This document shows positions 1 through 27,275 of a DNA stretch of 46,073 nucleotides, piece by piece; position 1 is the stretch's first letter; each line of letters begins with the position of its first letter. The stretch is from the NCBI GenBank assembly GCA_017626145.1, contig JAGAJK010000077.1:79004-125076 (forward strand). The letters run 5' to 3'. A program made the translations under genes and the position numbers. Under the pieces are notes generated by a model. That model saw nothing but the letters and a program-made list of their open reading frames with translations, had not been told where the DNA came from and searched no databases. The DNA comes from Clostridia bacterium. GTDB taxonomy: Bacteria; Bacillota; Clostridia; RGIG6154.

Positions 1-818
1 TTAATATTCAGAAATTTTGCGTAAATGACGGACCGGGCATACGTACAACGGTGTTTTTGAAAGGCTGTCCTTTGCGTTGCTTGTGGTGCCATAATCCCGA
101 AAGTCAGGCAAAAGAAAAAGAAATAATGTTTTATGCCGATAAGTGTTCGGGGTGCGGAAGATGTCGTAGCTTGACGGTTGACACCGATGATTTTGTGTGT
201 TTTAACGATGCAAAAGAAATTTGCGGAAAAACGGTATCGTCGGATTATGTTATTGCTGAAGTAATGAAAGATTACGAATTTTACAAAAATTCCGGCGGTG
301 GAATTACCCTTTCCGGTGGTGAACCGTTGCTTCAGTTTGAATTTGCTTTGGATATTTTGAAAAAATCAAAAGAACATGGTTTGCATACCGCTATTGAAAC
401 CTGCGGTTTTGCAGAAAAAGATAAGGTTAAGAAAGTTGCAGAATTCACAGATTTGTTTCTGTTTGATTTTAAAGAAAGCGATCCCGAATTACATAAGACC
501 TATACCGGAGTAGATAATATACTGATACAGAAAAACTTATCTTTACTAAATGAGTTGAAAAAAGATATTATTCTCCGTTGTCCTGTAATTCCAGGATACA
601 ATGACAGAAAAGACAACTATGACAAAATATGTGAGCTTGCAAATTCACTTGTATCAATTATCGGTATTGAAATAGAGCCTTTTCACTCTTTCGGCGAAAC
701 CAAATATAACGCATTAGGAAGACAAAATGCCGAAATTCTAATGCAAACAGATGAACAAATCAATGAAATAATTGATTATATCGCCTCGAAAACAAACATA
801 TCGGTAAAAAAAGCATGA
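1..818 (+). CDS. glycyl radical enzyme activase (radical SAM), 5' end cut by window edge
   Basis: This enzyme uses S-adenosylmethionine and a [4Fe-4S] cluster to place a glycyl radical on a partner enzyme in the cytoplasm. The frame is open from base 3 ([18 protein letters not shown]), so only about five N-terminal residues should be missing; the GTG at 51 is internal. The CxxxCxxC radical-SAM motif is seen as [15 protein letters not shown], and [15 protein letters not shown] is the SAM-binding GGE region. The auxiliary ferredoxin-like insert is reduced: it has CSGCGRC and then two isolated cysteines ([11 protein letters not shown]) in place of the usual eight. The activase at 8392 has the same reduced insert; the one at 4113 does not. 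The partner GRE gene should lie just left of the window. The stop overlaps, as ATGA, the start of the spoIVB-like ORF at 815. Confidence 0.93.
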
Positions 819-1827: not shown

Positions 1828-1856
1828 TTGTATTCAATTTCTTTTTATGCTAAAAT
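1828..1856 (+). promoter_or_regulatory. promoter of GRE operon 2
   Basis: A TTGTAT -35 (1828-1833), a 17-base spacer and a TAAAAT -10 (1851-1856) place transcription start just before the AAAGGTGG ribosome site at 1864-1871, giving a very short leader. It lies in the divergent gap with the AraC gene. Confidence 0.5.
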
Positions 1857-1878
1857 GCGTTTGAAAGGTGGAGATTAT

Positions 1879-4116
1879 ATGATTAATTCTGCAGACAGAT
1901 ATTTTATTGAACGAAAATATCACGATCCGGAAAAAGAATTTGATGCATTTAGCCGTATGGCATATCACGGAACAGGATATATAAAAGAAAGCGGTCTTTG
2001 TGATAAAGAATTATTGAAAGGGCTTGAACAGCTTTCAAGGGAGAATGAAGGCTTACCTCACCCGATTGCAAGAGCAAAAGCCATTAAATATGTTCTTGAA
2101 AATCAACGTTTGTATATAAATGAGCACGATTATTTTGTAGGTCTTTATTCGCTGAATCGTTTAGCTAACGAAAGCACCTTCAAAAAATGGGAAAAAGAAT
2201 CACACACCTTAAGAAATCCCGAGACTATGGAGTGCTCCAATGATTTTAACAATTCAGGTGCAGTAACAATACGTACAGACTATGATCATGTTGTTCCTGA
2301 CTGGAAATCTTTAATGGAATTAGGGTTTGTTGGTATTCGTGAAAGAGCAAGAGAATACCGTAAAATGCACAGTGAGAACAAAACTATGACTAAAGAAACA
2401 GAGGCATTTTTCGATGGCATTGAAATTCAATACACAGCAATTATTGATTTAATTGACAGGATGTATCGTACTGCTTGCGAATTAACCTTTGAAAAGGCAC
2501 CTCAAATAGCTGAGTGTTTAAAAAATCTTCGTGATGGACATCCAACTTGTTTTTATGAGGCATTACAGTTTATTTATATATTTTTTATAATATCTGAATC
2601 AATAGACAGTTATCAGGTTCGTTCTCTAGGCAACGGTCTTGATAATACGTTGTACGGATTTTATAAAAATGATCTGGAGTCGGGGAAATGCACAAAAGAG
2701 GATATAAGAAATTATTTATCTTACTTTTTTATGCAGTGGTCTGCCATAGGCAACTATTGGGGGCAACCGTTTTATATGGGTGGCACCGATTTAAACAGCA
2801 ACACGAAGTACAACGAACTTTCATACGAAATTCTTGATGTATATGATGAGCTTGAAATCTATAACCCTAAAATACAGTTGAAGATAAATAAAAATACACC
2901 TGATAAAATCTTAAATAAAGCTTTTGATATGGTTCGCCGAAAAAATGCCAGCATTGTATTTTGTTGTGAGCCTGCTATGATAAAAGCTATAATGGGTTAT
3001 GGAGCTACTTATGAAGAAGCGATTAACTATGATATCAGAGGATGTTATGAAACAGGAGTCAGGGCAAATGAGGTTTGTTCATCTTCGGGATATGTAAATG
3101 TTGCAAAAGCCGTGGAGTTTGTGTTTACTAATGGGTATGATTATGGGATTAAAAAACAGGTTGGTGTAAAAACAGGTGAGATTTTAGAAATCAAAACATT
3201 TGAAGATTTCTATTTTGCCTTTTTAAAACAATGGGAATATCTCATTGAGCAAAGTATGAAAATCACAAATGATGCAGAACGTTTTCTTGCATTTGTAAAT
3301 CCGTCATCTATGTATTCTGCTACAATTGAAACAAGTCTTAAAAACGGCAAAGATGGTTATGCTGGCGGTGTGAAATTCAATAATAACGCTATGCTTAACT
3401 GCGGTTTTGCCAGCGCAGTTGACAGTCTTATGGCGGTAAAAGAATTTGTTTTTGATAAAAAAGAAATAACGCTGTCTGAGCTTGCAAAGGTTTTGGAAGT
3501 TAACTGGAAGGGTTACGAAAAATTACAGATTAAAATAAAAAAATCGCCACTTAAATATGGTAACAACGATGCTGTGGCAGATACTTACGCATCGGCTATG
3601 TCAAGCTATTTTGCCAATAAGGTCAACAATGTACCTAATGGCAGAGGCGGTGTGTATAAAGCGATATTCCACTCTGCCCGTGCTTTTATAAACCAGGGAG
3701 AAAAAACCGGAGCTTTGCCGGATGGAAGATTAAAAGGAGAAGAACTGTCTAAAAACGCTTCACCCGTTGTCAGTATGGATAAAAAAGGTGTTACGGCTTT
3801 GGTTGAGTCTGCGACTAAGCTCATTCCGTCTGATTATCACGAATCGTTTTGTGTTGATGTTATGCTTCACCCGAGTGCAGTTGAAGGCGAGGATGGATTA
3901 AATGTGCTAAAAGGTGTTCTTATGACCTATCTTAACAAAGGCGGTCAGTCAATTCAGTTCAATATTTTTAATACAGACACTCTGCGTGATGCACAAAAAA
4001 ATCCGGAAAAATATCAAAATCTGCAGGTTAGAGTTTGTGGTTGGAATACTCTTTGGAATAATATGAGCAAAAAAGAGCAGGATGCATATATTTTAAGAGC
4101 GGAGAATGTTGAATGA
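1879..4116 (+). CDS. glycyl radical enzyme (eliminase type), substrate unknown
   Basis: This is a 745-residue catalytic GRE. The thiyl-radical loop is IRGCYETG, with Cys389 and Glu391 forming the GCxE signature found in GRE dehydratases, decarboxylases and C-N or C-S lyases. The glycyl loop is RVCGWNTLW with Gly721, 24 residues from the C-terminus. Pyruvate formate-lyase has two adjacent active-site cysteines; this protein has one, so it is not PFL. The start is set by AAAGGTGG seven bases before ATG 1879; the frame extends upstream to 1828 only through the promoter. It overlaps its activase by ATGA at 4113. No microcompartment genes, transporters or downstream dehydrogenases lie in the module, so the substrate cannot be inferred. 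Confidence 0.93.
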   Translation: MINSADRYFIERKYHDPEKEFDAFSRMAYHGTGYIKESGLCDKELLKGLEQLSRENEGLPHPIARAKAIKYVLENQRLYINEHDYFVGLYSLNRLANESTFKKWEKESHTLRNPETMECSNDFNNSGAVTIRTDYDHVVPDWKSLMELGFVGIRERAREYRKMHSENKTMTKETEAFFDGIEIQYTAIIDLIDRMYRTACELTFEKAPQIAECLKNLRDGHPTCFYEALQFIYIFFIISESIDSYQVRSLGNGLDNTLYGFYKNDLESGKCTKEDIRNYLSYFFMQWSAIGNYWGQPFYMGGTDLNSNTKYNELSYEILDVYDELEIYNPKIQLKINKNTPDKILNKAFDMVRRKNASIVFCCEPAMIKAIMGYGATYEEAINYDIRGCYETGVRANEVCSSSGYVNVAKAVEFVFTNGYDYGIKKQVGVKTGEILEIKTFEDFYFAFLKQWEYLIEQSMKITNDAERFLAFVNPSSMYSATIETSLKNGKDGYAGGVKFNNNAMLNCGFASAVDSLMAVKEFVFDKKEITLSELAKVLEVNWKGYEKLQIKIKKSPLKYGNNDAVADTYASAMSSYFANKVNNVPNGRGGVYKAIFHSARAFINQGEKTGALPDGRLKGEELSKNASPVVSMDKKGVTALVESATKLIPSDYHESFCVDVMLHPSAVEGEDGLNVLKGVLMTYLNKGGQSIQFNIFNTDTLRDAQKNPEKYQNLQVRVCGWNTLWNNMSKKEQDAYILRAENVE

Positions 4117-4982
4117 AAGCATTAATTTCTGATATAAAACGTTTTGCGGTACACGATGGTGACGGAATAAGAACAACGGTATTTTTCAAAGGCTGTCCGC
4201 TAAAATGTGTGTGGTGTCACAACCCCGAAAGCATTGATTTTAAGCCGCAGGTGGCATACTATGAAAATAAGTGTATTGATTGCGGTGAATGCGTTTCTGT
4301 ATGCCCATCAGGTGCACACAAATTCACACAAGAAGGTCATATTTTTGAAAGAGATTTATGTGTTGCCTGCGGAAAATGTGAAAAGGCTTGTCTTGGCGAA
4401 GCGCTGAAATTTTACGGCAAGGAAATGACAGTTGACGAACTTTTGCCGTTATTGCTTGAAGATAAGGACTTTTATAAAACAAGCGGCGGTGGAGTAACAC
4501 TTTCGGGCGGAGAATGTCTTATGCAGGCAGATTTTTGTGCAGAGCTTTTACAGATGTTAAAAAAAGAAGGTATAAATACAGCAGTTGATACCTGTGGATA
4601 TGTACCAAAAGAAAGTATTGATAAAGTTTTGCCATATACTGACACATTTTTATATGATATCAAGGCAATTGATGAGAATGTGCACATTAAATGCACAGGT
4701 AAAAGCAACCGGTTGATTTTAGAAAATATAAAATATATCGATTCGCTTGATAAATCAATAGAGGTAAGAATACCCTATGTGCCAAACTATAATGATAATC
4801 AAATTAAACAGATAGCCGATTTTTTAAAAGGACTTAAAAATTCCATTAAGGTTCGTGTATTACCATACCACAATTATGCAGGTTCAAAATATGAGGCACT
4901 GGATATGGAAAATAGTTTGCCTGTAAGATTACCTGACGGAGAGGAAATAAAAAATGCAGAAAAACTGTTTACATTGATATGA
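4113..4982 (+). CDS. glycyl radical enzyme activase with two auxiliary [4Fe-4S] motifs
   Basis: This is a 289-residue radical-SAM activase for the GRE encoded immediately upstream (ATGA overlap). The motif KGCPLRCVWCHNPES-like stretch (KGCPLKCVWCHNPES) gives CxxxCxxC. Two complete ferredoxin-type motifs follow: CIDCGECVSVCPSGA and CVACGKCEKACLGEA. SGGGVTLSGGE is the SAM-binding strand. It differs from the activases at 1 and 8392, which have a shortened cysteine insert, so the array mixes two activase subtypes. The downstream region holds a short ORF and the second spoIVB relic. Confidence 0.95.
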   Translation: MKALISDIKRFAVHDGDGIRTTVFFKGCPLKCVWCHNPESIDFKPQVAYYENKCIDCGECVSVCPSGAHKFTQEGHIFERDLCVACGKCEKACLGEALKFYGKEMTVDELLPLLLEDKDFYKTSGGGVTLSGGECLMQADFCAELLQMLKKEGINTAVDTCGYVPKESIDKVLPYTDTFLYDIKAIDENVHIKCTGKSNRLILENIKYIDSLDKSIEVRIPYVPNYNDNQIKQIADFLKGLKNSIKVRVLPYHNYAGSKYEALDMENSLPVRLPDGEEIKNAEKLFTLI

Positions 4983-5357: not shown

Positions 5358-6137
5358 TTTTGAAGATATATACTTTTGAGCAAAAACAGATGGAGCGATT
5401 CCAACATATTCTTTAAACTGGCGGCTGAAATAATAGACATTGTCATATCCGCACAACTCTGCAACTTGTGTTATTGAATATTGTTTTGAACGAAGAAGAT
5501 CACAGGCGTGGTTTACTTTTAATTGAATAATATATTTGATGGGAGACAGACCGAATTTTTTGATAAACAGTTTCTTTAAGTATGCTTCACTTATTCCGCA
5601 TTTGTCAGCTAAAAAAGGAACTGAAATTTTGTCATTTAGGAAATTCTTCAGTATATATTCAATTGCCGGCTTAATTGTATTATATTGATTTTGTGGGATA
5701 TAATTTTGCTTTTGCAATTCGGCAAAGATTTTGTAAAGCAGAGATATGCACTCAAAATAGTATCCGTCATTTTTAGAAACCCATATGGAAAAGATTTTTT
5801 TAAACAGATTTGAAATAGTTGTGCTTTGTGTAATTTTTATAACAAAAGCTTCATCTGACAAAGGAATATCAGTATCAAAAAATATATCAATACATTCACA
5901 GGGGGTCTGTTTATCTACAATGTATTCTTTAACTTCACCTTTAGGTAAAAAACGTATTGTGTTTTCTTCAGTTTCAAGAACCTTACCATTAAAATAAACC
6001 GTTGACTTACCATTAAAATGATAGATAAGCTCGTTGCTTAGGGCGGGATGCTTAAAAACTATTCTGTTTTGAGGATATTCGTTTTTGCCGACTAATATTA
6101 CACGGTTAATTCTTGTTATAATAAAATTCTGTTTCAT
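5355..6137 (-). CDS. AraC family transcriptional regulator (GRE module regulator 2)
   Basis: This 260-residue protein has the same architecture as the product of 996-1754. The N-terminal sensing half contains NTIRFLPKGEVKEYIVDK, and two HTH motifs lie near the C-terminus, the second being QVAELCGYDNVYYFSRQFKE. ATG 6137 (MKQNFIITRINRVILV) matches the paralogues' starts. It diverges from the GRE gene at 6272 across a gap of about 130 bp and is the likely activator of that operon. The ligand is unknown. Confidence 0.92.
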   Translation of the reverse strand: MKQNFIITRINRVILVGKNEYPQNRIVFKHPALSNELIYHFNGKSTVYFNGKVLETEENTIRFLPKGEVKEYIVDKQTPCECIDIFFDTDIPLSDEAFVIKITQSTTISNLFKKIFSIWVSKNDGYYFECISLLYKIFAELQKQNYIPQNQYNTIKPAIEYILKNFLNDKISVPFLADKCGISEAYLKKLFIKKFGLSPIKYIIQLKVNHACDLLRSKQYSITQVAELCGYDNVYYFSRQFKEYVGIAPSVFAQKYISSK

Positions 6138-6245
6138 ATTATCACCAAATTAATAATAACAGATAAAAAAGCTTATGTCAACATGGAATTGTACCGAAAA
6201 GTATAAATATGATGCTTGGTGTATTTACTTAGATGCATATATCGG

Positions 6246-6271
6246 TATACTTATAGTGAAAGGTGGTATTT
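6246..6271 (+). promoter_or_regulatory. -10 box and ribosome site upstream of GRE operon 3
   Basis: TATACT (6246-6251) is the best -10 in the divergent gap, but no good -35 stands 16-18 bases upstream. That would suit an activator-dependent promoter under the adjacent AraC protein. The ribosome site AAAGGTGG follows. The rest of the gap (6138-6245) shows nothing clear. Confidence 0.3.
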
Positions 6272-8395
6272 ATGATGAATGCAAGAATAAATGAACTTAC
6301 AAAGCTGACATTAAAGGGTGAGATGTACGCACATCCCACACCCACAGAATATGACAGAGAAGATTTGTTTTTATCAAGACAGCAGATGGAATCAAAAAGA
6401 CTTTGCGAATTCATATTAAATCAGGAGCCGGTTTTAACCGAATATTCCAGAATGACCGGTTTTTTTAACTGTGATTCAACTGTTGTTGGCGATGCCTTCA
6501 GGCGAATGGGACATAAAGCTTTTGAGCAAATGTACAATATTTTTTATGTAAAAGCTGTCGACAACCTTTCCACCTTTGAATGGCAACACGCAACTGCTGA
6601 TTACAAAAAAGTATTAGAAAAAGGAATAAGCGGAATTATTGATGAAATTGATGAGTCTCTTAAAATACATACTAAGCCAGAGGAAACAGAGTTTTTAAAT
6701 GCCATTAAATCTGTAGCACTTACGCTGATTAAGTGGGCACATAAATGCTCAAAAAAGGCATTGGAGCTTTCTAAAACTGTTTCAAATGAAGAGTATAAGG
6801 AAAATTTGTTGAAACTGTCTGAAGTGCTTTTAAATGTTCCTGAAAACAAGCCTTCTTCATTTTATGAGGCGGTGCTTACGATTTACATTTGTTTTTCTGC
6901 AGACCCCGACAGCGTCGGAACTCTTGATAGATATCTGACACCATTTTATGAAAATGACATAAAAAACGGAATTATTACCAAAGACGAAGCAAAAGAATAC
7001 CTGCAGGAGCTTTTCCTTATGCTTCAGGCAGCAACACGTGTAAGCAGTCCGCATTTTACAAGAGGCGCTGAGTCGCATTTTTGCATCGGTGGCTATCTTC
7101 CGGATGGAAGCGATGGTTATAACGAACTTTCACAGCTGATACTTGAAAGCTTACTGGAACTGCCAACCTGGATTCCGCAGGTAACCTTGCGTTGGACCAA
7201 AAAGACACCTAAAGAAGTATTTCGTTTTGCTCTCGATTGCGAAAGAAAAGACCCTCATAAGAGAATTGCTTTCCAAAACGATGAAAAACGAATGAAATGC
7301 TATACTGAAATATGCGGTTTCCCATTTGAAAAAGCAGTTGGATATACAACCGTCGGATGTAATGAGCCTGCCTTTTTAGGAGCAATTACAGGAAGTACTT
7401 CCAAAATAAATTTTGCCCGCTGTATCGAAACACTCTTTCATAAAAAGACTGAAAAAATTATAAATACCAAGGATTTTGACGAATTTTATTCAGTGTTCCT
7501 GGAAGAAATGTTTTCCGACCTTGAAATCGCCTGCGAATATGATAATAAATACAATCGTGAGCGTGCAAAGGATATAAATTATCTTTCAAGTATATTCTTT
7601 CAGGGGTGTATAGAAAAAGCCAGAAGTCTTACTCAGGGTGCAGGAGATGTTGTGATTGCTTCACCAATGTATATCGGAATTGCAAATGTAATTGATTCGC
7701 TTATTATAGTAAAGCAGTTTGTGTTTGACGAAAAAATTATTACAATGGCAGAGCTTGTTTCAGCACTCAGGGCTGACTGGCAGGGATATGAAGAGCTACG
7801 TGCTTTAATTCTTAAAAAGGGAGATTTCTTTGGTAATGATACAGAACGCTCAAATTACGTAGCACAAAAATTATATCAGAGTCTGTATGAATTCCTGAAA
7901 GATAAAACCAATCTTTTTGGCTATCACTGGCTTATCGGCAATCTTATAGGATATAATCCACACCATAAATGGTTTGGAGAAAAAATGGAAGCTACCCCGG
8001 ACGGCAGACATAAAGGAGATTCTCTCAAATTTGGTTTGGGACAAAGTGAAGGAAAGGACAGGAATGGTCTTACTGCACTTTTAAATTCAATTGCCAAGGT
8101 TGACCCCAATGCAATCGGATGTGGTTCTACCATTACCAATCTGATGATAGATGAACAACTTGTGAAAAATGACGAGAATTTTGAAAAAACAGTTGATATG
8201 CTTGAAACATATTTCAAAAACGGCGGAGTTCATTTTCAGCTTACCTATGTTTCTAAAGAAGACCTGATAAATGCTAAAGTAACGCCTGACGATTATAAAA
8301 ATTTACGTGTTCGTGTATCGGGATTTTCTGATTACTTTGTAAAGCTTAACGAGGCAATACAGGATGATATTATTGAGAGGACCACTCAAAAATGA
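6272..8395 (+). CDS. glycyl radical enzyme (eliminase type), substrate unknown, short form
   Basis: This is a 707-residue GRE counted from ATG 6272; ATG 6275 is equally possible, and the AAAGGTGG site sits 5 or 8 bases upstream. The cysteine loop VGCNEPAFLG contains Cys363 and Glu365 (GCxE). The glycyl loop is RVSGFSDYF with Gly684. It is short for a GRE (commonly about 780-850 residues) and only distantly similar to the enzyme at 1879, so the two likely have different substrates. A single active-site cysteine rules out pyruvate formate-lyase. It overlaps the activase start by ATGA at 8392. No accessory pathway gene in the module identifies the substrate. Confidence 0.93.
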   Translation: MMNARINELTKLTLKGEMYAHPTPTEYDREDLFLSRQQMESKRLCEFILNQEPVLTEYSRMTGFFNCDSTVVGDAFRRMGHKAFEQMYNIFYVKAVDNLSTFEWQHATADYKKVLEKGISGIIDEIDESLKIHTKPEETEFLNAIKSVALTLIKWAHKCSKKALELSKTVSNEEYKENLLKLSEVLLNVPENKPSSFYEAVLTIYICFSADPDSVGTLDRYLTPFYENDIKNGIITKDEAKEYLQELFLMLQAATRVSSPHFTRGAESHFCIGGYLPDGSDGYNELSQLILESLLELPTWIPQVTLRWTKKTPKEVFRFALDCERKDPHKRIAFQNDEKRMKCYTEICGFPFEKAVGYTTVGCNEPAFLGAITGSTSKINFARCIETLFHKKTEKIINTKDFDEFYSVFLEEMFSDLEIACEYDNKYNRERAKDINYLSSIFFQGCIEKARSLTQGAGDVVIASPMYIGIANVIDSLIIVKQFVFDEKIITMAELVSALRADWQGYEELRALILKKGDFFGNDTERSNYVAQKLYQSLYEFLKDKTNLFGYHWLIGNLIGYNPHHKWFGEKMEATPDGRHKGDSLKFGLGQSEGKDRNGLTALLNSIAKVDPNAIGCGSTITNLMIDEQLVKNDENFEKTVDMLETYFKNGGVHFQLTYVSKEDLINAKVTPDDYKNLRVRVSGFSDYFVKLNEAIQDDIIERTTQK

Positions 8396-9222
8396 AATTA
8401 CGGAATGAAACTATGAAAACTATAATTTTCGATATAGAAAGAAATTCTTTTGTAGATGGTCCCGGAATACGCACCACAGTATTTTTTAAAGGATGCAATT
8501 TAAGGTGCAAATGGTGTCACAACCCCGAAAGTCAGAATCCGAAAAAGGAAATACTTTTTTACAATAGCAAGTGTACAGGTTGCGGAAGATGCAGGGATTT
8601 AACCGTGGAGGATGAAAATTTCTTTTGCTTTAACGATGCAAAGGAAGTCTGCGGAAAAGAATATATAGTTGATGAGGTTTTTGCTGAAGTAATAAAAGAC
8701 AAAGCTTTTTACGAAACCTCAGGCGGCGGAGTTACCTTTTCGGGCGGTGAATGTATGCTGCAGACAGATTTCCTTTTGGAAATCCTGAAAAAATGCAAAG
8801 AAAACGGCATACATACAGCAGTTGATACCGCAGGGCATATACCATGGGAAAGCTTTGATAAAATTCTGCCTTTTACCGATTTGTTTTTGTATGACATCAA
8901 AGCTATGAATGAAGAAATCCACAAGGAATATACAGGTGTCACCAACACACTTATTCTTGAAAATCTGGCAAAGCTGTTAAAAACAAATGTTGATGTTTGG
9001 GTAAGGATTCCTGTTATTCCCGGTATAAATGATACAGAAGATGAAATGCAAAAAATCAAATCATTTTTTGATATAAACAGTTATCCTGAAAAAGTAGAGC
9101 TACTCCCTTATCATGCTATGGGAGAGCACAAGTACGCATCCCTTGGCAAAAGTATTGAAAAATTTGATGTTCCCGACAAAGGAAAAATTGAAAAATTAAA
9201 GAATATTATTGTCTCCTATTGA
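8392..9222 (+). CDS. glycyl radical enzyme activase, reduced auxiliary cluster
   Basis: This radical-SAM activase has 276 residues from ATG 8392, which overlaps the GRE stop; an internal ATG at 8413 (MKTIIFDIERNSF) is also plausible. KGCNLRCKWCHNPES carries the CxxxCxxC motif and SGGGVTFSGGE the SAM-binding region. Its insert has CTGCGRC followed by two single cysteines (FCFNDAKEVCG), nearly the same as the activase at the left edge and unlike the one at 4113. The last five codons (IIVSY) and the stop lie within the repeat shared with the spoIVB relics. The cassette border therefore contributes the enzyme's C-terminus. Confidence 0.93.
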   Translation: MKLRNETMKTIIFDIERNSFVDGPGIRTTVFFKGCNLRCKWCHNPESQNPKKEILFYNSKCTGCGRCRDLTVEDENFFCFNDAKEVCGKEYIVDEVFAEVIKDKAFYETSGGGVTFSGGECMLQTDFLLEILKKCKENGIHTAVDTAGHIPWESFDKILPFTDLFLYDIKAMNEEIHKEYTGVTNTLILENLAKLLKTNVDVWVRIPVIPGINDTEDEMQKIKSFFDINSYPEKVELLPYHAMGEHKYASLGKSIEKFDVPDKGKIEKLKNIIVSY

Positions 9223-10920: not shown

Positions 10921-10947
10921 AACTCGGCTATTTCAGCCGAGTTTTTT
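10921..10947. terminator. bidirectional terminator, SDR and rpiR-like genes
   Basis: AACTCGGCT pairs with AGCCGAGTT around a 5-base loop, followed by six T. A matching A run lies on the other side, so it can serve both convergent genes. Confidence 0.9.
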
Positions 10948-11788
10948 ATTTCAGGTCATTGGTTATCTCGTACGTCTTTTCGACGTTACCTATGCATTTG
11001 TCATAATTTACAGTAAGGTATGCCATAAACAGAGAGTCCATCATTGCAAACTGACTTACACGTGAAGTAATGGCAATTTTGTGTAAGGGACTTTCTCTTG
11101 TTTGGGTAAGGAGAATGTAATCTGCGAATTTGCAAATGTTGCTGTTACTGAAGGTTGTTACTGCAACTGTTGTAATTCCCGCTTTTTGTGCTGTTTTTAA
11201 TATTGACTCAACGGTTTCGTTATTTCCTGAATGGGAAACACCAAATACCACATCACCTTTTTTCATATTTAACAAGGTAAGTGCTGCCGATGTTGATTCA
11301 CAGGCACATTCAGTACTTATTCCTATTCGTTTGAATTTAACAGATGCATCCTGACAAACTATAAATGATGTTCCAACACCAAAGAAAGCGATTTTATCTG
11401 CTTTTTGTATTTTCTGAACAATATCGGATAATGTATTGTAGTCTATATTCTGACTGGTAAGGTTTAAGCACTCTGCACAGGAAGAAAGCATTCTTGATAT
11501 CTGTGCCTCGGGGGAGTTATCATTTTTGTGAAAGTCTAAAATAAAATCCTCGTGTTCGCTTCCAAGCTGTGCAAGATACAATCTGAAATCCTTGTAACCT
11601 TCAAACCCTAAATGCTGCGCAAAACGAACAATAGTTGCAACACTTATATTAAGCTCTGCGGCCAATGCCTGCACGCTTATTGAAAGCACATGTTCAAAGT
11701 TGTTAATTATATAATCAGCTAATGTTTTTTCACTGTTTGTCATAGCTGTATATTTTTCGGTCATAAACTGAACGATATCTTTTTTCAT
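10946..11788 (-). CDS. RpiR/MurR family transcriptional regulator
   Basis: This 280-residue regulator has an N-terminal HTH_6 domain (about residues 1-77, with LNISVATIVRFAQHLGFEGY) and a C-terminal SIS sugar-phosphate-binding domain (about 105-270, with FGVGTSFIVC and VFGVSHSGNNETVES). MurR proteins sense MurNAc-6-P or GlcNAc-6-P. Divergence from the kinase/NanE-MurQ operon makes an amino-sugar phosphate the likely effector. Both its own promoter and the operon's promoter have GTAAC/GTTAC inverted repeats at the start site. It therefore probably represses both. Confidence 0.92.
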   Translation of the reverse strand: MKKDIVQFMTEKYTAMTNSEKTLADYIINNFEHVLSISVQALAAELNISVATIVRFAQHLGFEGYKDFRLYLAQLGSEHEDFILDFHKNDNSPEAQISRMLSSCAECLNLTSQNIDYNTLSDIVQKIQKADKIAFFGVGTSFIVCQDASVKFKRIGISTECACESTSAALTLLNMKKGDVVFGVSHSGNNETVESILKTAQKAGITTVAVTTFSNSNICKFADYILLTQTRESPLHKIAITSRVSQFAMMDSLFMAYLTVNYDKCIGNVEKTYEITNDLK

Positions 11789-11892: not shown

Positions 11893-11949
11893 TTGACTTT
11901 TACATATCACGAATGTATAATTGTTACATAAACAACAAATGATGTAACA
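11893..11949 (+). promoter_or_regulatory. amino-sugar operon promoter with operator-like inverted repeat
   Basis: TTGACT (11893-11898), 17 bases, then TATAAT (11916-11921) is near consensus. Directly downstream, TGTTACAT (11922-11929) and ATGTAACA (11942-11949) form a perfect 8-bp inverted repeat separated by 12 bases. Its GTTAC/GTAAC core is shared with the repeat at the divergent promoter, so it is a likely RpiR operator. Confidence 0.65.
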
Positions 11950-11971
11950 TCTGTTGACGGGAGGAAACAAT

Positions 11972-13870
11972 ATGTCAATTTTGATTATAAGTGATGCTGT
12001 AAGTGATTTAAGTAATGTTTTAATGAATTCTGCAAAGTGTGATATGATTTCGTTTAAGGAGGCAGAACAAAAGGATTTAACCGGTTATACAGCTTTAGCT
12101 CTGCTTTGCGGTACGGAAAACATAAGACCTCGTGTGCTTTCGGCGGCACTGCGTATAAAAGTTGAAGAATTTGCTGAAATAGGTAAACCTATATTTTATG
12201 AATGGTGTGCAAGCCTTGGTCATACCGTTACAGACGGGGACGATTATAATGACGGCAGAGATTCTATGAGCGATACTATGAACAGATATATCTATATTGG
12301 AAATGATAACGAAAGAATTAAATACGGCGATTTGGTTGACAGTCAGGCTAACCGCGGATGCAATTATATCTTTATTCCTGAAAATGCATACCCTGTTTTA
12401 TATAATGGCGGTCATATAATAAGTCATGACCACGTAGATAAGAGTGAAATAAATACCGACGATATTGTTTCAAAAGACTGGCGGCTTTGGTATTATGATA
12501 AAAACAGACTTGTATGTTCATTTCGTATTTCAAATTTCGTAAAGGCGAGATTTGCACCATTTGAATCCTGGTGCGGAATTATTGAAATTATTTTAAAGCA
12601 TCTCGGTATTGAAAAAATTCAGATGCCGGAGCCTTACTATAAGCTTGGCAGTAACTGCGATGCTGTTGGTACATTTGACAAAGGATTAAAATGGTTTGAT
12701 GGTTGTAATATTCTTATAGATAACGGGAAAGCAGGAGCAAGAGAGGGAATGGCGCATCCGATTTATCCCGACGGTATTCAGGCTGTAAGACAAAATGTTC
12801 GTGTTGACTGTATTGGCGAAATTGCAGGAGCTTACCTTTTTGACTACATTTTAAACAATAACAAGAATTCACTTTCCGTTTATAAAAATCTTTCAGACTT
12901 CATTTTTGATAAAATGCAGATTAAATCAGGAAAATTTGCCGGGATGCTTCGCTGGACAGAGGGTGCATGGTGTACAGTTTACGGTGACGATACGGGAAGA
13001 GCTGTAATAAGCACTCTTCTTTATATGATGTATACAGAGGATTTAAGTCATTTGCCGCAGGTTGAAGCAGCTCTTGAGTTTCTTATAAGCATAACCGGTA
13101 CCGACGGACTGATGGAACATGGTGTTCACACAAGCTATCTTACAGATGAAAAAATAAAGGAAATGACATCAAAGCCTTCAAACCAGTACTGTGCACACCG
13201 TAACGCATACTATAGTGCAGCACTTCTTCTTGCATATCGCTTAAATAATAAACAGATATACTATGATACAGCAGTAAAAGGTTTGTCGACAATTATGGGT
13301 GTATACCCCGAAACAATGCGTGCAATCAGTGAAACAGAGGAATTATGCCGACTTGTTTTTCCGCTTTCCTGTCTTTATCAGGTAACGGGAAATGAAGAAC
13401 ATAAAAACTGGCTTTACGATGTTTGCGAAAGACTTGAAAATTATCATCACGAAAGCGGTGGTTATACTGAGGTTGACCCGGGTTATAAAGCATACAGAAG
13501 CAGAACAGCGGGAACGGAATCATCAATGCTTGCAGATAACGGAAACGAAATAGCAGAACTTTTGTATTCACTCAACTGGTTGCCTTTAGGGTTTTCATAT
13601 GCTTATTATGTAACTAAAGATAATTATTTTCTTGAAAAATGGGAAAGTATTGCAAAATTTATGTCGGATACACAAATTGTAAGCAAGGATAGAAAAATTG
13701 ACGGTGCATGGTCAAGGTGTATTGACCTTAAGCGTATGGAAGTTTATGGCATGCCTCACGATGTAGGCTGGGGACCACATGCCATTGAAAGCGGTTGGAC
13801 AGTTGCGGAAATTCTTATGGGGCTCGGTTTGGGTATTGCTCTTAAAAATGATAAATTTCCCGAACTGTAA
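11972..13870 (+). CDS. unrecognised 632-residue protein, possible alpha/alpha-toroid glycosidase
   Basis: First gene of the amino-sugar operon. The start at 11972 (MSILIISDAVSD) follows GGGAGG; the frame extends back to 11954 without a better start. There is no signal peptide, so it should be cytoplasmic. The first 220 residues or so look like an alpha/beta domain of class I amidotransferase or glycosidase-accessory type (ALALLCGTENIRPRVLSAAL, then GKPIFYEWCASLGH). The rest is rich in helices with repeated Trp, Tyr and Gly motifs (LRWTEGAWCTVYGDDTGRAV, YGMPHDVGWGPHAIESGW), as in six-hairpin glycosidases; this is inference. The neighbours suggest it releases or prepares an N-acetylated sugar. 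I do not recognise the family. Confidence 0.7.
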   Translation: MSILIISDAVSDLSNVLMNSAKCDMISFKEAEQKDLTGYTALALLCGTENIRPRVLSAALRIKVEEFAEIGKPIFYEWCASLGHTVTDGDDYNDGRDSMSDTMNRYIYIGNDNERIKYGDLVDSQANRGCNYIFIPENAYPVLYNGGHIISHDHVDKSEINTDDIVSKDWRLWYYDKNRLVCSFRISNFVKARFAPFESWCGIIEIILKHLGIEKIQMPEPYYKLGSNCDAVGTFDKGLKWFDGCNILIDNGKAGAREGMAHPIYPDGIQAVRQNVRVDCIGEIAGAYLFDYILNNNKNSLSVYKNLSDFIFDKMQIKSGKFAGMLRWTEGAWCTVYGDDTGRAVISTLLYMMYTEDLSHLPQVEAALEFLISITGTDGLMEHGVHTSYLTDEKIKEMTSKPSNQYCAHRNAYYSAALLLAYRLNNKQIYYDTAVKGLSTIMGVYPETMRAISETEELCRLVFPLSCLYQVTGNEEHKNWLYDVCERLENYHHESGGYTEVDPGYKAYRSRTAGTESSMLADNGNEIAELLYSLNWLPLGFSYAYYVTKDNYFLEKWESIAKFMSDTQIVSKDRKIDGAWSRCIDLKRMEVYGMPHDVGWGPHAIESGWTVAEILMGLGLGIALKNDKFPEL

Positions 13871-13882
13871 GAAAGGAAGAAT

Positions 13883-14815
13883 ATGAAAAATTTACTTATT
13901 GCTGATATTGGAGGGACTAACACACGCCTTTATATTACAGATATAAATAACAATGTACTTTATGAATCGGTAGGCTACGGAGTTGCAACTGCCACAGACG
14001 AAGATTTGCCTATTTTGTCACTTGAAGAGCAGATAGCTGAGTTGCCTGAAAAACAAAATGTGGGAGCTATTGCAATTAATCTGGGCGGAAAAAATACAAA
14101 CCAGGTTAAGAAGTGCTTTAAAAAGGTCTTTTGCGATACACCACTTGAAATTTTCCGTGAATCGGAAGGAACGGCTGCATATGCACTTGGAGAAGAATAT
14201 AATGCTCCCGTTGTACTTATGGCAGGAACAGGTGCAATAGCCGTAGGCAAATCTAATAATGGCTTTGTAATTACAGGCGGATGGGGAATTAATATAGGTG
14301 ACGACGGAAGTGGCTACGATATAGGCTTGCAGGCAATAAGAATGAGCCTGAAAGCACTTGACAATACGGAAACTTTATCGCCCCTTACAAAGTTTTTGTG
14401 CAACTGCGATCAGCCGATTTCTGCAACAGAAAATCCTGTGCTTTACAGAGATAAAAGAGACATTGTCCGCAGCAAGCTTTATCCCTTTGACAGACCTAAC
14501 ATTTCATCGCTTTCGAAAACTGTTTTTGAATTTGCAAAAAAGGGTGATAAATCAGCTCTCGATATATTAAAGTACTCAGGTGAAAAGCTTGCTGAACTTG
14601 TTATTTGTACTGCAAACAAGCTTTCGGGAGAAATTCCCAATGTTGTAGTAACAGGCGGACTTATTCATTCACGTGAATTTTGGAAAGAATATTTTGAAAA
14701 GGCTGTACTTGACGCAATTCCAAACGTGAAAATATATTACGTTCCTGACGGACTTCTTAAAGGAACATTTAAAATTGCAAAAGATTTATATGAAAGAGGT
14801 AAAATAAATGATTGA
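13883..14815 (+). CDS. N-acetylhexosamine kinase, BadF/BadG/BcrA ATPase family
   Basis: This 310-residue ASKHA-fold kinase has phosphate-1 motif ADIGGTNTRLYITD, a second ATP motif LMAGTGAIAVGKSNNG with GGWGINIGDDGSGYDIG, and an adenosine motif VVVTGG. The GGWG..GD.GSG pattern is typical of GlcNAc kinases and of the MurK-type kinase that phosphorylates MurNAc and GlcNAc. In this operon its likely role is to make the 6-phosphates used by the downstream NanE-MurQ fusion. It starts 12 bases after the upstream stop, with ribosome site GAAAGGA, and its end overlaps the next gene by 8 bases, implying coupled translation. Confidence 0.88.
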   Translation: MKNLLIADIGGTNTRLYITDINNNVLYESVGYGVATATDEDLPILSLEEQIAELPEKQNVGAIAINLGGKNTNQVKKCFKKVFCDTPLEIFRESEGTAAYALGEEYNAPVVLMAGTGAIAVGKSNNGFVITGGWGINIGDDGSGYDIGLQAIRMSLKALDNTETLSPLTKFLCNCDQPISATENPVLYRDKRDIVRSKLYPFDRPNISSLSKTVFEFAKKGDKSALDILKYSGEKLAELVICTANKLSGEIPNVVVTGGLIHSREFWKEYFEKAVLDAIPNVKIYYVPDGLLKGTFKIAKDLYERGKIND

Positions 14816-16307
14816 TTTTCCAACAGGTTTAATTGTGTCTGCCCAGGCACTTGATGGAAATCCGTTCCGTAATTCAGAGGCGCTTGCGCTTATGGCAGAA
14901 TCTGCCGCTATCGGAGGTGCGTCTGCAATCCGTGCAAACGGAGCCGGCGATATTGCTGCTATGAGAAAACGTGTATCAATTCCCATAATAGGTATTGACA
15001 AACGTAAAGACTCTTCGGGAAGAACAGTAATAACACCCGATTTCGAAGGTGCAAAAAGAATATATGAAGCAGGAGCAAACATTATCGCGCTTGATGCAAC
15101 CTTTTATCCGAGTGATATCACAGAGGACCGCAAGGAATTAATTAAACGTATTCACGAAGAACTGGGGATACCTGTTATGGCGGATATTTCTACATTTGAA
15201 GAAGCTGTAAATGCCGTAGAAATGGGTGTTGATGCAGTATCTACCACATTGGCAGGTTATGTTCCCGGGGCACTCCACAGTGATGACGAATTATATGTTC
15301 CTGATTTTACTTTGTTATCGCAGATTGTAAAAGCAAAGCTTCCTTGCAAGGTTGTAGCCGAAGGCAGAATATGGGGAAGTGAGGATATAAGAGAAGCATT
15401 CTGTATAGGTGCCGATGCTGTTGTTATAGGAAAAGCTATAACAAACCCTATAGCAATTACCCGTTATTATAACAGCTTTATACCCAAAAAGGGTGAAAAT
15501 AATTATGTTCCAACTGAAACAAGAAATGTTCGTTCTGATAAAATTGTAGACGGCTCAACCGAGACGATTTTACGCATAATTCAAAGAGAAGATGCAACCG
15601 TTCCTGTAGTTGTAAAAAGTTGTATACCACAGGTTGCTAAATTAGTTGATGCGGCAGTAGAGAGTCTTAAAAACGGTGGAAGAATTATATACTGCGGTGC
15701 AGGCACAAGCGGACGTCTGGCAGTTGCAGATGCGGCAGAATGTCCGCCGACATACGGAATTCCAAGAGAAAAGGTAACCGCAGTAATTGCAGGCGGAGCA
15801 GGCACTATTGTAAATGCATCCGAGGGTTGCGAGGACAGCCGAGAAAACGGTATTTCAGCTTTCGAAAACCTAAACTGCACTAAAAATGATTTAATTATAG
15901 GTATATCCGCCGCAGGCCGTGCACCGTTTGTTGTTGCTTTTATGGAAAAGGCAAAGGAAATGGGATGCACAGTTGGTGCTCTTGTTAATAATCTTGATAC
16001 GGATATGGCTAAGCTTGCGGATATTTCTGTTGAAGCGCTAACCGGTGCCGAGGTTATAAAAGGCTCCACACGAATGAAAGCAGGAAGTGCCCAGAAGATG
16101 ATACTCAATATGTTTTCAACAGCCGTTTTTGTTAAAATGGGCTGTACATGGCAGAATTATATGACTCATATGAATCCGTCAAACATTAAGCTTAAAAAAA
16201 GAGCAATAGCAATGGTGTGTGAAATATTAAATATAAAAGAAGATGAAGCAGAAAAGCTTTTAGTTTCAAACAATTGGGACATACACAATACTTTAAAAAA
16301 ATATTAA
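14808..16307 (+). CDS. fused ManNAc-6-P 2-epimerase (NanE) and MurNAc-6-P etherase (MurQ)
   Basis: This single 499-residue frame carries two complete enzymes. Residues 1 to about 228 are a NanE TIM barrel: FPTGLIVSAQALDGNPFRNS, the catalytic-lysine region IIGIDKRKDSS, and VVAEGRIWG with the catalytic Glu. Residues from about 232 are MurQ, an SIS-fold etherase: ETRN start, CGAGTSGRLAVADAAECPP, EGCEDS with the second key Glu, IGISAAGRAPFV, and a C-terminal helical UBA-like tail. NanE turns ManNAc-6-P into GlcNAc-6-P. MurQ turns MurNAc-6-P into GlcNAc-6-P and D-lactate. Both halves keep their catalytic residues and roughly normal length. Sialic-acid and cell-wall sugar salvage would meet at GlcNAc-6-P. 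No nagA or nagB is in the window. Confidence 0.93.
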   Translation: MIDFPTGLIVSAQALDGNPFRNSEALALMAESAAIGGASAIRANGAGDIAAMRKRVSIPIIGIDKRKDSSGRTVITPDFEGAKRIYEAGANIIALDATFYPSDITEDRKELIKRIHEELGIPVMADISTFEEAVNAVEMGVDAVSTTLAGYVPGALHSDDELYVPDFTLLSQIVKAKLPCKVVAEGRIWGSEDIREAFCIGADAVVIGKAITNPIAITRYYNSFIPKKGENNYVPTETRNVRSDKIVDGSTETILRIIQREDATVPVVVKSCIPQVAKLVDAAVESLKNGGRIIYCGAGTSGRLAVADAAECPPTYGIPREKVTAVIAGGAGTIVNASEGCEDSRENGISAFENLNCTKNDLIIGISAAGRAPFVVAFMEKAKEMGCTVGALVNNLDTDMAKLADISVEALTGAEVIKGSTRMKAGSAQKMILNMFSTAVFVKMGCTWQNYMTHMNPSNIKLKKRAIAMVCEILNIKEDEAEKLLVSNNWDIHNTLKKY

Positions 16308-16315
16308 TAAAACTG

Positions 16316-16351
16316 AAGACGTACATCACGATTGGTGTACGTCTTTTTTTT
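16316..16351. terminator. bidirectional terminator after nanE-murQ
   Basis: AAGACGTACA pairs with TGTACGTCTT around a 10-base loop, followed by a run of T to 16351. The stop codon of the convergent AraC gene is in the loop. Confidence 0.9.
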
Positions 16352-19445: not shown

Positions 19446-21002
19446 ATGAAAATTACTATTGAAAGCAATTATTTAATTTTTCCTGTTGGAACTGTATCTG
19501 CCCCTAAAGAACTGATTTTTTCAGACGGAACAGATGTAGTTTATAACATTGTTGTAAAGCTTGATAATTATGCTCCTGATTTTTATGCATATATTGATGT
19601 TAAAAGGTTTAAAGGACAAACCCTTGAGTTATCTGTCGAGCCTGAAATGGAACTTATTTTTAGAGAATGTGATACAATTGATGTTGAAAATCTTTACCAT
19701 GAACCAACCCGTCCGCAAATTCACTTTACTGCGAAAAACGGATGGCTTAACGACCCCAACGGTCTTATATATATCGACGGAACATATCATATGTTCTTTC
19801 AGCATAATCCAGGGGATGTACACTGGAGAAAATCAAAGCATTGGGGACACGCAATAAGTAAGGATTTAATACATTGGGAGGAAACCGACATTGCTCTTTT
19901 TCCTGACAAAAGGGGAGCAATGTTTTCAGGAAGTGCTATTTTAGACCATAATAATGTTCTTGGCAAGAATGAAGGAGAAAATAAGGCTGCTGTGCTATTT
20001 TATACAACAACTTCGCCTTACTGCCAGAATATGTCTTATTCAACCGATAATTTCAAAACCATAAACCATTACGAGGGAAACCCGATAATTCCGTTTATTG
20101 ATGACCGTAACCGTGACCCGAAGGTGGTTTTCTGTGACGAACTTAATTGCTATGTAATGATACTTTATATTACTGATAATTTATATTATCTATTCACATC
20201 GGATAACTTAACGGACTGGACACATATTCAATCAATAAATATGAATGCTGAAAGAGAATGCCCGGATATTTTCCATATAAATGATAACGAGGGAAACAGA
20301 AAATGGGTTATTATGGGAGCACGTGACAAATATCTTGTGGGAAAGTTTGAAGGCGGTAAATTTATTCCCGAGCAGGATATCATGTCACTTCACTACGGTG
20401 CCTGTGCCTATGCAGGTCAAAGCTTTAGTAATCTTCCAAATAACAGAGTTGTTAGAATGGTATGGAACAGATGGTATGTAAAGCCTAACAGCTTCAGCGG
20501 TCAGATGGGGATACCTATGGAGCTTTCTCTTATTAAGCTTAATGACATATATTATCTTCAGGCAAATCCTGTTGAAGAAATCAAAACTCTTTACAATGGC
20601 ATAAGGAAATTTGAAAATATTACAGTATTACCTGAAAATGAATTTAAAACTAACCTTACGGATTCACCGTATATGTTTAAAATCAAAGGCGATCACAGAA
20701 ATTCGGGAAATCTGAACATTTGTGCTTTCGGAAGAAATATAGAAGTTGATTTTACTAAAAATGAATTAAAGCTTGCCGATTGCATAGCACCCATTTCAAT
20801 AACAAAAAAGAATTTTGAAATTACCGTAATAATGGACAGATGCGGTATGGAGATATTTACCGATGGTGGTAAAGCATATATGTCATGTCTTATAGATTAT
20901 GCGGCAATGGACAGAAATCTTCCGTACTTTACTTTAAAATCAGATGAAACACTTGAAATTAACGAACTTGAAATGATTACGTTAAATTCGATATGGAGTT
21001 GA
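19446..21002 (+). CDS. GH32 fructan/sucrose hydrolase
   Basis: This is a 518-residue glycoside hydrolase. About 90 residues of beta-rich N-terminal extension precede the five-bladed catalytic domain. The three GH32 carboxylate motifs are present: WLNDPNG (nucleophile Asp), NRDPKV (transition-state Asp) and RECPDIF (acid/base Glu), along with FQHNPGDVHW and WGHAISKDLIHW. There is no signal peptide, so it acts in the cytoplasm on imported sucrose, sucrose-6-P or fructo-oligosaccharides, and sequence alone does not choose among them. A fructokinase gene, now broken, starts four bases downstream in the same operon. Confidence 0.94.
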   Translation: MKITIESNYLIFPVGTVSAPKELIFSDGTDVVYNIVVKLDNYAPDFYAYIDVKRFKGQTLELSVEPEMELIFRECDTIDVENLYHEPTRPQIHFTAKNGWLNDPNGLIYIDGTYHMFFQHNPGDVHWRKSKHWGHAISKDLIHWEETDIALFPDKRGAMFSGSAILDHNNVLGKNEGENKAAVLFYTTTSPYCQNMSYSTDNFKTINHYEGNPIIPFIDDRNRDPKVVFCDELNCYVMILYITDNLYYLFTSDNLTDWTHIQSINMNAERECPDIFHINDNEGNRKWVIMGARDKYLVGKFEGGKFIPEQDIMSLHYGACAYAGQSFSNLPNNRVVRMVWNRWYVKPNSFSGQMGIPMELSLIKLNDIYYLQANPVEEIKTLYNGIRKFENITVLPENEFKTNLTDSPYMFKIKGDHRNSGNLNICAFGRNIEVDFTKNELKLADCIAPISITKKNFEITVIMDRCGMEIFTDGGKAYMSCLIDYAAMDRNLPYFTLKSDETLEINELEMITLNSIWS

Positions 21003-25331: not shown

Positions 25332-27275
25332 ATGATTTACTATGTTTCTGTAAACGGAAATGATTGCTTTGACGGATCAAAGGATGCACCGTTTCGTACA
25401 ATTAATAAAGCAGCAAGCATTGCTGTTCCGGGGGATGTTGTGAGAGTTTTTAGCGGCACGTACCGTGAATGGGTAGACCCTAAAAATGGTGGCACAAGCG
25501 ATCGTAATCGTATTATTTACGAAGCGGTTGATGGTGAAAAACCGATAATTAAAGGGTCAGAAATAATAACCGGCTGGGAAAAAGTAAAAGATACTGTATG
25601 GAAAAAAGAACTTTCAAATGAAATGTTCGGAGAATGGAATCCTTTTGCAATTGAAGTCAATGGGGATTGGCTTGTAGAACCTTTTAATGATTACCGTGTA
25701 CACCTTGGTGATGTATATATAAACGGTGTGTCAACTTTTGAAGCAAAATCTATGGAAGATTTGTATGATTCCGAACCGAGAATAACCTGCTGTCAGAACT
25801 CATGGCGAGTTGAAGATGAGTATATTCTTCACCCGGAGCTTACTGTTTATAAATGGTATGCCGCGGTAAATAACGAAACTACAACTATTTACTGCAATTT
25901 CGGAGAATATAACCCAAATGTTGAAACAATTGAAATTAATGTTCGTTCATGTTGTTTCTACCCTAAAGCTACGGGAATTAATTACATAACTCTTCGTGGT
26001 TTTGAAATTGCACAGGCAGGTTGTCCGTGGACTCCGCCAACATCATATCAAATAGGTATGGTAGGGCCCAACTGGAGCAAAGGATGGATAATAGAAGATA
26101 ATGATATTCATGATGCGAAATGTAGTGGCATAAGCATCGGAAAAGAGGAAAGAACCGGCGACAACCTTTTCACAAAATATGCAAGAAAGACGGGGCATCG
26201 TCATCAGCTTGAGGCGGTCTTTGCAGCACTTCGGATGGGATGGAGTAAAGATACTATAGGTTCACATATAATACGAAACAATTCAATTCATGATTGCGGA
26301 CAAAATGCGATAGTCGGTCATCTTGGGTGTATATTCTCCGAGATTACACATAACCACATCTATAACATAGGTGTAAAACATGAATTCTGGGGTCATGAAA
26401 TGGCAGGAATTAAATTACATGCCGCAATTGATACATTAATAATTGAAAATAATATTCATAATTGCACATTAGGTACATGGCTTGATTGGGAAGCACAGGG
26501 TGTAAGAGTAACAAAAAATATATATCACGCAAACAACCGGGACTTTATGCTTGAAGTCAGCCATGGTCCGGCACTTATTGACCATAACATTTTTATGTCC
26601 CGGTATTCTTTTGATTACTGGTCTCAGGGTTCTGCATTCGTTCATAATCTTATATGCGGTGAAATATTTTATAAACCGGTTATGGAACGACAGACACCTT
26701 ATCATCTTCCTCATTCCACAGAGGTTGCAGGTTACTGTCAAATTTATGGTGGTGATGACCGTTATTATAATAACATTTTTGCCGGTAAGTTTGAAGATTA
26801 TGTAGGAAGTCTTGAGCTTGAACAATTTACAAAGCACTGTGACATATTTTTAACTCCTGAAGAATATGATGAACAGGTGTCTGAAGTGTTTAAAAATAAA
26901 AAGAAAGACCTTGGTGCAATAACTCAGCCTGTGTGGCTTAAAGATAATGCATATTCAGGTTTTTCAAAGGTGTCAGACAATGAAAAAAACGCCTTTGTTG
27001 CACAAGGATTTTCTGCCGAAATAGAAGAAAAGAACGGAGAATATTTCTTAAATATAAGTGTGCCTGAAGAATTTGCTGTTGCCGATTGTGAAGCTGTTTC
27101 TTCCGTAAGGCTTGGCGAACCGAGAATTTCAGCAATGTCCTTTGAGGCATCAGATGGCTCTGATTATGACTTTTCCTTTGATCTTATAGGTGATAAGCAT
27201 GATGAAAAAATTGTTCCCGGTCCGTTGGCACATTTAAAAGAAGGTAAGCAAAGAGTTTGTATTTGGAAAGAATAA
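25332..27275 (+). CDS. GH120-type beta-xylosidase (right-handed beta-helix)
   Basis: This 647-residue protein is colinear with GH120 beta-xylosidase XylC of Thermoanaerobacterium as I remember it: MIYYVSVNGNDCFDGSKDAP, GPNWSKGWIIEDNDIHDAK, ECPD-free beta-helix repeats, and HLPHSTEVAG with YGGDDRYYNNIF. The catalytic pair is expected at Asp385 (LDWEAQG) and Glu408 (LEVSHGP). Their 23-residue spacing matches the known D382/E405 pair. It has no signal peptide, so it trims imported xylo-oligosaccharides in the cytoplasm. It is preceded by its own promoter and followed by a terminator, hence monocistronic. No xylose isomerase, xylulokinase or transporter lies nearby. Confidence 0.9.
   Translation: MIYYVSVNGNDCFDGSKDAPFRTINKAASIAVPGDVVRVFSGTYREWVDPKNGGTSDRNRIIYEAVDGEKPIIKGSEIITGWEKVKDTVWKKELSNEMFGEWNPFAIEVNGDWLVEPFNDYRVHLGDVYINGVSTFEAKSMEDLYDSEPRITCCQNSWRVEDEYILHPELTVYKWYAAVNNETTTIYCNFGEYNPNVETIEINVRSCCFYPKATGINYITLRGFEIAQAGCPWTPPTSYQIGMVGPNWSKGWIIEDNDIHDAKCSGISIGKEERTGDNLFTKYARKTGHRHQLEAVFAALRMGWSKDTIGSHIIRNNSIHDCGQNAIVGHLGCIFSEITHNHIYNIGVKHEFWGHEMAGIKLHAAIDTLIIENNIHNCTLGTWLDWEAQGVRVTKNIYHANNRDFMLEVSHGPALIDHNIFMSRYSFDYWSQGSAFVHNLICGEIFYKPVMERQTPYHLPHSTEVAGYCQIYGGDDRYYNNIFAGKFEDYVGSLELEQFTKHCDIFLTPEEYDEQVSEVFKNKKKDLGAITQPVWLKDNAYSGFSKVSDNEKNAFVAQGFSAEIEEKNGEYFLNISVPEEFAVADCEAVSSVRLGEPRISAMSFEASDGSDYDFSFDLIGDKHDEKIVPGPLAHLKEGKQRVCIWKE

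Follow-up and report, generated by a model that had tools for sequence, protein, structure and literature searches.

A NanE-MurQ fusion gene in a Clostridia genome points to salvage of cell-wall sugars rather than sialic acid use

Why should a ManNAc-6-P 2-epimerase (NanE) and a MurNAc-6-P etherase (MurQ) be encoded by one gene, and which sugar would such a protein serve? The question is raised by a reading frame in the stretch of Clostridia DNA analyzed here (46,073 nucleotides, hereafter the window), which an earlier note had described as joining sialic-acid and cell-wall sugar salvage. Our results show that the fusion is genuine, with a bifunctional protein predicted from its kept domains, and that it points to bacterial cell-wall sugar salvage and not to sialic acid use.

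The frame lies at 14808–16307 on the forward strand and encodes 499 amino acids without interruption, with zero internal stops and its coordinates unchanged. It consists of a NanE-family barrel (14808–15479, +; residues 1–224), the fusion junction with a linker (15480–15527, +; residues 225–240) and the SIS domain of MurQ (15528–16307, +; residues 241–499 and the stop codon). Residues 5–225 match the NanE profiles PRK01130 (214.8 bits, cut-off 189) and PF04131 (160.4 bits, cut-off 27), and residues 234–494 match the MurQ profiles PRK05441 (320.3 bits, cut-off 168) and PRK12570 (290.2 bits, cut-off 255). The stricter MurQ equivalog TIGR00274 is narrowly missed (279.6 vs 302 bits), and the MurQ half ends early, covering PRK05441 to position 266 of 300 only. 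A separate MurQ of 283 amino acids in a genome of the same family (L003) also falls narrowly short of TIGR00274, with 300.6 bits. In the AlphaFold model the barrel (1–224) and the SIS domain (241–499) are connected by a linker at residues 227–240 with pLDDT below 50, and the relative placing of the two domains is of low confidence (pTM 0.49). Foldseek matched the NanE part to CpNanE (4utu) and SaNanE (1y0e/6vva), and the MurQ part to 4s12 and 4lzj. The genome itself contains a single copy of each domain.

The MurQ half possesses glutamates E311 and E342, 31 residues apart, which are invariant in all 110 other MurQ proteins (110/110) and which we take to be the catalytic pair, Glu83 and Glu114 of E. 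coli MurQ, with the same spacing. For NanE, the active site comprises Gln11, Arg40, Lys63, Asp124, Glu180 and Arg208 in SaNanE numbering (PMC8482478). The first five are kept as Q13, R42, K65, D126 and E185 in the alignment. However, at codons 209–213 (15432–15446, +) the alignment of 84 NanE proteins places Lys209 and Asn213 where SaNanE has Gly204 and Arg208. Thus, the claim that both enzymes are complete in one frame with their catalytic motifs retained holds for the domains and the main catalytic residues of both, but not for Arg208.

The draft state of the genome (98 contigs) and the two genes present at the junction point in relatives might suggest an error of assembly or sequencing, or a chance union of decaying genes. 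When 84,980 species genomes were scanned for close relatives, one other fused gene came up, in a separately assembled MAG from water-buffalo colon (L022), whose protein is 86% identical and whose fusion frame is equally uninterrupted. Between the window and L022, dN is 0.048 and dS 1.14 for NanE (dN/dS about 0.04), and dN is 0.106 and dS 1.28 for MurQ (dN/dS about 0.08); both halves have been under purifying selection since the fusion. An artefact is ruled out by this independent copy, which is 86% identical with a dS over 1 and a low dN/dS for NanE and MurQ alike, and a reverse-order fusion in a complete isolate genome (see below) also argues against it, so that its probability is practically nil. 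The stop or sequencing error that the earlier note had considered near base 15495 is absent, the frame being continuous both here and in L022.

The NanE tree groups the window with L022 (support 100/99), which fits a single fusion event. We compared the junction DNA in L022 to L027. In L023, L025, L026 and L027 nanE and murQ are separate, the stop of the one overlapping the start of the other by four bases (ATGA) at the junction point; L024 contains nanE without murQ. The unfused close relatives possess a kinase-nanE-murQ-GH42 operon of separate genes, with the GH42-like hydrolase gene 3' of murQ. The ATGA overlap therefore indicates that the fusion was the joining of an existing operon pair, in which a short in-frame linker took the place of the overlap.

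No further fusion was detected in 391 genomes of the class and 398 of the phylum, where the three top candidates of each genome were scored, among viral contigs or among phage records, and the plasmid records gave one, WP_015231443.1 on plasmid pDEIPE01 of Deinococcus peraridilitoris. These searches lend no support to a widespread fusion family. The Deinococcus protein is a single CDS of 523 amino acids in a complete record, annotated only as MurQ etherase, with the order MurQ-NanE, the reverse of that in the window. Because of this reversed order and an identity of only 36% (MurQ) and 49% (NanE) to the window halves, we consider it an independent fusion. On its upstream side are genes for a MurR/RpiR regulator, for a sugar-binding protein and for two ABC permeases; on its downstream side are those for a BadF kinase and for a hydrolase of the beta-lactamase family. 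Elsewhere in Deinococcus, murQ adjoins the same kind of hydrolase, with ABC transporter genes near in the two loci read, and the setting looks like peptidoglycan salvage. Both fusions have an adjoining BadF-family, MurK-like kinase and a nearby MurR/RpiR-type regulator in common. As for the suggestion that the architecture is undescribed, it was found neither in the literature searched, which lay largely outside subscription titles, nor in curated families, and it is a recurrent union, seemingly undescribed, of two known enzyme families.

In the window, three co-directed genes, encoding an (alpha/alpha)6-barrel protein, a BadF kinase and the fusion, are located between a promoter-like and a terminator-like site, both from consensus scans. 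The former, TTGACT-17-TATAAT (11893–11921, +), agrees at 11 of 12 positions, which by itself is no evidence of function; the latter is an intrinsic-terminator-like hairpin (16315–16346, +) of 14 pairs followed by a T run, just 3' of the fusion. A divergent MurR/RpiR-family regulator (10946–11788, −) contains HTH_6 and SIS domains, with PRK11337 and AlsR as best matches below cut-off. No transporter gene is found among the operon genes.

The first operon gene (11954–13870, +; likely true start ATG 11972 after GGAGGA) encodes an N-terminal alpha/beta domain and an (alpha/alpha)6 barrel. Its model (pLDDT 84.9) is closest by Foldseek to cellobiose 2-epimerase/AGE and GH76 proteins at about 10% identity; neither Pfam nor NCBIfam assigned the protein to a family over cut-off, and PDB gave no sequence match. 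A family name was dropped, the resemblance being at the level of the fold only. The protein has an invariant D338-D339, recalling the paired Asp of GH76, and a paralogue with 44% identity is encoded elsewhere in the genome (G000:C70:36271-38145, L148). Taken together with the GH42-like hydrolase of the relatives, this gene indicates that in both layouts kinase, NanE and MurQ have a putative sugar hydrolase or isomerase beside them.

The second gene (13883–14815, +; PF01869, 78.9 bits) encodes a BadF/BcrA-type, MurK-like sugar kinase and overlaps the fusion start by 8 bases. Its best solved relative is the MurNAc/GlcNAc kinase 8zo3. At the position aligned to the catalytic Asp (Tf_MurK D95) the window kinase has Glu; L025 has Asp and L027 Cys. 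The motif RE(S/A)(E/D/C)G occurs in the window, L022, L024, L025, L027 and L189 where MurK-type kinases carry the catalytic Asp, which is kept in all other BadF kinases of the set, so that the change is confined to the window clade. A MurK-like kinase does therefore stand upstream, as proposed earlier, but that it supplies both substrates can only be suggested for an enzyme so unusual at the catalytic Asp. A BadF kinase also directly adjoins murQ in other Clostridia (L030, L032, L191 and L192), followed in L030 by a protein of 708 amino acids with weak GH42M and GLMA-like matches only; L032 and L192 have a protein of similar size.

Elsewhere in the window two glycyl-radical enzymes are encoded (1828–4982 and 6263–9222). 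An activase-like gene follows and overlaps each of them, and a third frame of this kind lies at the edge of the window (3–818). A GH32 family gene (19446–21002) lies upstream of a gene for a beta-helix protein with a GH120 insertion domain (25332–27275).

We further focused on the residue that the NanE half lacks. In SaNanE, Arg208 contacts O3/O4 of ManNAc-6-P, and the R208A variant retains 3.7% of kcat with a KM of 31 mM, tenfold higher (PMC8482478). The position is Asn in the whole window clade as well as in the D. peraridilitoris fusion, and the Gly204 position is Lys in the window clade. The 84 NanE proteins, drawn from the class and phylum genomes and from the window clade, divide into 60 with Arg at this position and 24 with N, A, D, M or S. 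Neighboring kinases were identified in BLAST searches that used references from the window clade, and a window-type BadF kinase is close by in 20 of the 22 scorable Arg-less NanEs vs none of the 60 Arg-bearing ones. The trait switches five times on the best tree, three times on a quick tree including the Deinococcus row, and once or twice where forced by well-supported branches; a test on independent pairs shows no significance for the correlation and, with so few forced switches, could not do so. Arg-less NanEs also occur where murQ is not adjacent (L024, L189, L172 and L179), and the loss therefore follows the kinase; a direct tie to MurQ adjacency finds no support. MurQ is present in 19 of 20 genomes whose NanE lacks the Arg and in 35 of the 53 whose NanE has it (p 0.015 by Fisher's test, which takes no account of phylogeny). 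From the association with the kinase we infer a kinase-linked NanE subfamily whose substrate is probably different or broader. L185, another Bacillota genome, has MurQ (5874–6974), a kinase (6967–8235) and NanE (8210–8998) followed by ABC transporter genes, and in this NanE Asp stands in for Arg208 and Arg for Gly204.

The gene content of the genome, which is 95% complete, bears on whether the locus serves sialic acid. It has no match to the sialidase family BNR_2 (PF13088) and no NanA lyase over the nanA cut-off; two DHDPS-family proteins reach 124 and 98 vs 382 bits, one being DapA (over the DapA cut-off and adjoining an aspartokinase gene) and the other another aldolase. The kinase beside the fusion is BadF-type, not a ROK-type NanK. 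Moreover, NanEs adjoining DHDPS/NanA-like genes retain Arg208, with L187 as the one exception. Sialic-acid catabolism, in which NanE would act on Neu5Ac-derived ManNAc-6-P with MurQ attached for the common end product, could draw on the NanE domain and on the RpiR-type regulator, since in S. pneumoniae the breakdown of sialic acid is sensed by NanR, itself of the RpiR type (PMC12713135). However, the missing sialidase and NanA, the kinase type and the loss of Arg208 make it very improbable, and a sialic-acid locus, the half of the earlier proposal that did not survive, is rejected on gene content.

NagA and NagB are encoded elsewhere in the genome, so GlcNAc-6-P, which both textbook reactions yield as the earlier note had said, is usable. 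NamZ, which as an exo-muramidase would release MurNAc, is without a match in the genome, and a WecG/TagA-superfamily glycosyltransferase is present at 198 vs 350 bits, below the TarA equivalog cut-off. Our preferred reading, with a probability of about 0.55, is a bifunctional enzyme in a three-gene operon that runs parallel routes from cell-wall amino-sugar phosphates to GlcNAc-6-P, the NanE half perhaps using an altered substrate; its substrates, uptake and step order are what we infer. An amino-sugar fragment of bacterial cell walls would be taken up and then split, and the BadF kinase would phosphorylate the released sugars at C6. The MurQ half would remove D-lactate from MurNAc-6-P and the NanE half would epimerize a manno-configured amino-sugar-6-P at C2, the two sites working in parallel toward a shared product that would pass to NagA and NagB. 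The fusion would most likely fix co-expression and stoichiometry. Wall teichoic acid linkage units have ManNAc next to the MurNAc of peptidoglycan, and thus one wall polymer could yield both substrates. As a guess, ManNAc might come from this ManNAc-GlcNAc linkage unit or from another ManNAc-containing wall polymer; the WecG/TagA protein cannot be assigned to TarA.

The parallel-route reading is favored by the fusion frame in two genomes with selection on both halves, the separate-gene operon of close relatives, the Deinococcus fusion with its kinase, transporter, regulator and hydrolase, the MurQ-kinase-NanE cluster of L185, the described MurNAc route through a BadF-type MurK and MurQ operon (PMC5790795), nagA and nagB in a genome with no sialidase match or NanA over cut-off, and the WecG/TagA-superfamily glycosyltransferase. 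Against it stand Asn in place of a residue needed for good ManNAc-6-P binding in SaNanE (PMC8482478), Glu at the catalytic Asp position of the kinase, the lack of an operon transporter gene and of a NamZ match, and, for the guessed teichoic-acid source, the score of the WecG/TagA protein below the TarA cut-off. The same Arg208 replacement, its close association with BadF kinases, its occurrence without adjacent murQ and the Lys at the Gly204 position could instead mean that NanE in BadF-kinase operons has changed its substrate, to an amino-sugar-6-P altered at O3/O4 or of another C4 configuration rather than plain ManNAc-6-P, with MurQ as a mere pathway neighbor. We regard this as possible but doubtful: all other catalytic residues are retained, and the switch may have had few origins, with no significance by independent pairs.

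The two halves might also act in sequence, a manno-configured muramic acid 6-phosphate being epimerized at C2 by NanE before its lactyl ether is lost in MurQ. That two fusions came about independently, with the domains in opposite orders, hints at a close functional tie, a site without the O3-contacting Arg would have room for a 3-O-lactyl group, and MurQ is more frequent in genomes with the Arg-less form (the comparison above ignoring phylogeny). But no such salvage substrate was found in the literature searched, and the Arg208 loss tracks the kinase and not MurQ adjacency, so we think consecutive action quite improbable. In a bolder form, and a rather unlikely one, NanE, MurQ and the BadF kinase would constitute a salvage pathway, so far undescribed, for a wall amino sugar of manno configuration that is 3-O-substituted (muramic-acid-like) or modified in some other way; in this pathway the Arg208-less NanE would have a new specificity and the repeated fusion in both orders would reflect consecutive steps on one substrate.

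A fusion that has arisen on two occasions, with opposite domain orders and in phyla far apart, is a strong hint that the two enzymes work together, and it ties NanE, commonly taken as a marker of sialic acid use, to peptidoglycan salvage. In gut genomes, NanE genes adjoining BadF kinases may be miscounted as sialic-acid use, and Arg208 offers a simple, single-residue test for them. If the substrate is new, a hitherto unrecognized cell-wall sugar would be revealed.

NanE-NanK fusions are known. The classical NanEs of S. aureus and C. perfringens, from sialic-acid operons, share with the window the fold, the HMM family and the active-site Q, R, K, D and E, whereas the window protein has Asn for Arg208 and Lys for Gly204, is fused to MurQ and has no NanA or sialidase beside it in the genome. 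HPS-PHI (3-hexulose-6-P synthase/6-phospho-3-hexuloisomerase, PDB 9lj9) likewise combines a phosphosugar barrel and, C-terminal to it, a SIS domain in a single chain, and its Foldseek match extends across both domains; however, its chemistry and families are different, its steps are consecutive and the identity is 18%. WP_015231443.1 unites the same two enzymes and has a BadF kinase, a MurR/RpiR regulator and Asn at the Arg208 position as the window does, but its domain order is reversed, its operon includes a sugar ABC transporter and it is annotated only as MurQ. In the MurT-MurK-MurQ operon of Tannerella forsythia and with Ca_MurK of Clostridium acetobutylicum, a BadF-family kinase and MurQ lead to GlcNAc-6-P as proposed here (PMC5790795, PMC10465942). 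Unlike the window, these systems consist of separate polypeptides, have a dedicated transporter in the operon and have no NanE described, and the window kinase is a distant relative of Tf and Ca MurK that differs at the catalytic Asp position. The hallmark of the MurK-MurQ systems, a BadF-family kinase in an operon with MurQ, is nevertheless present in the window.
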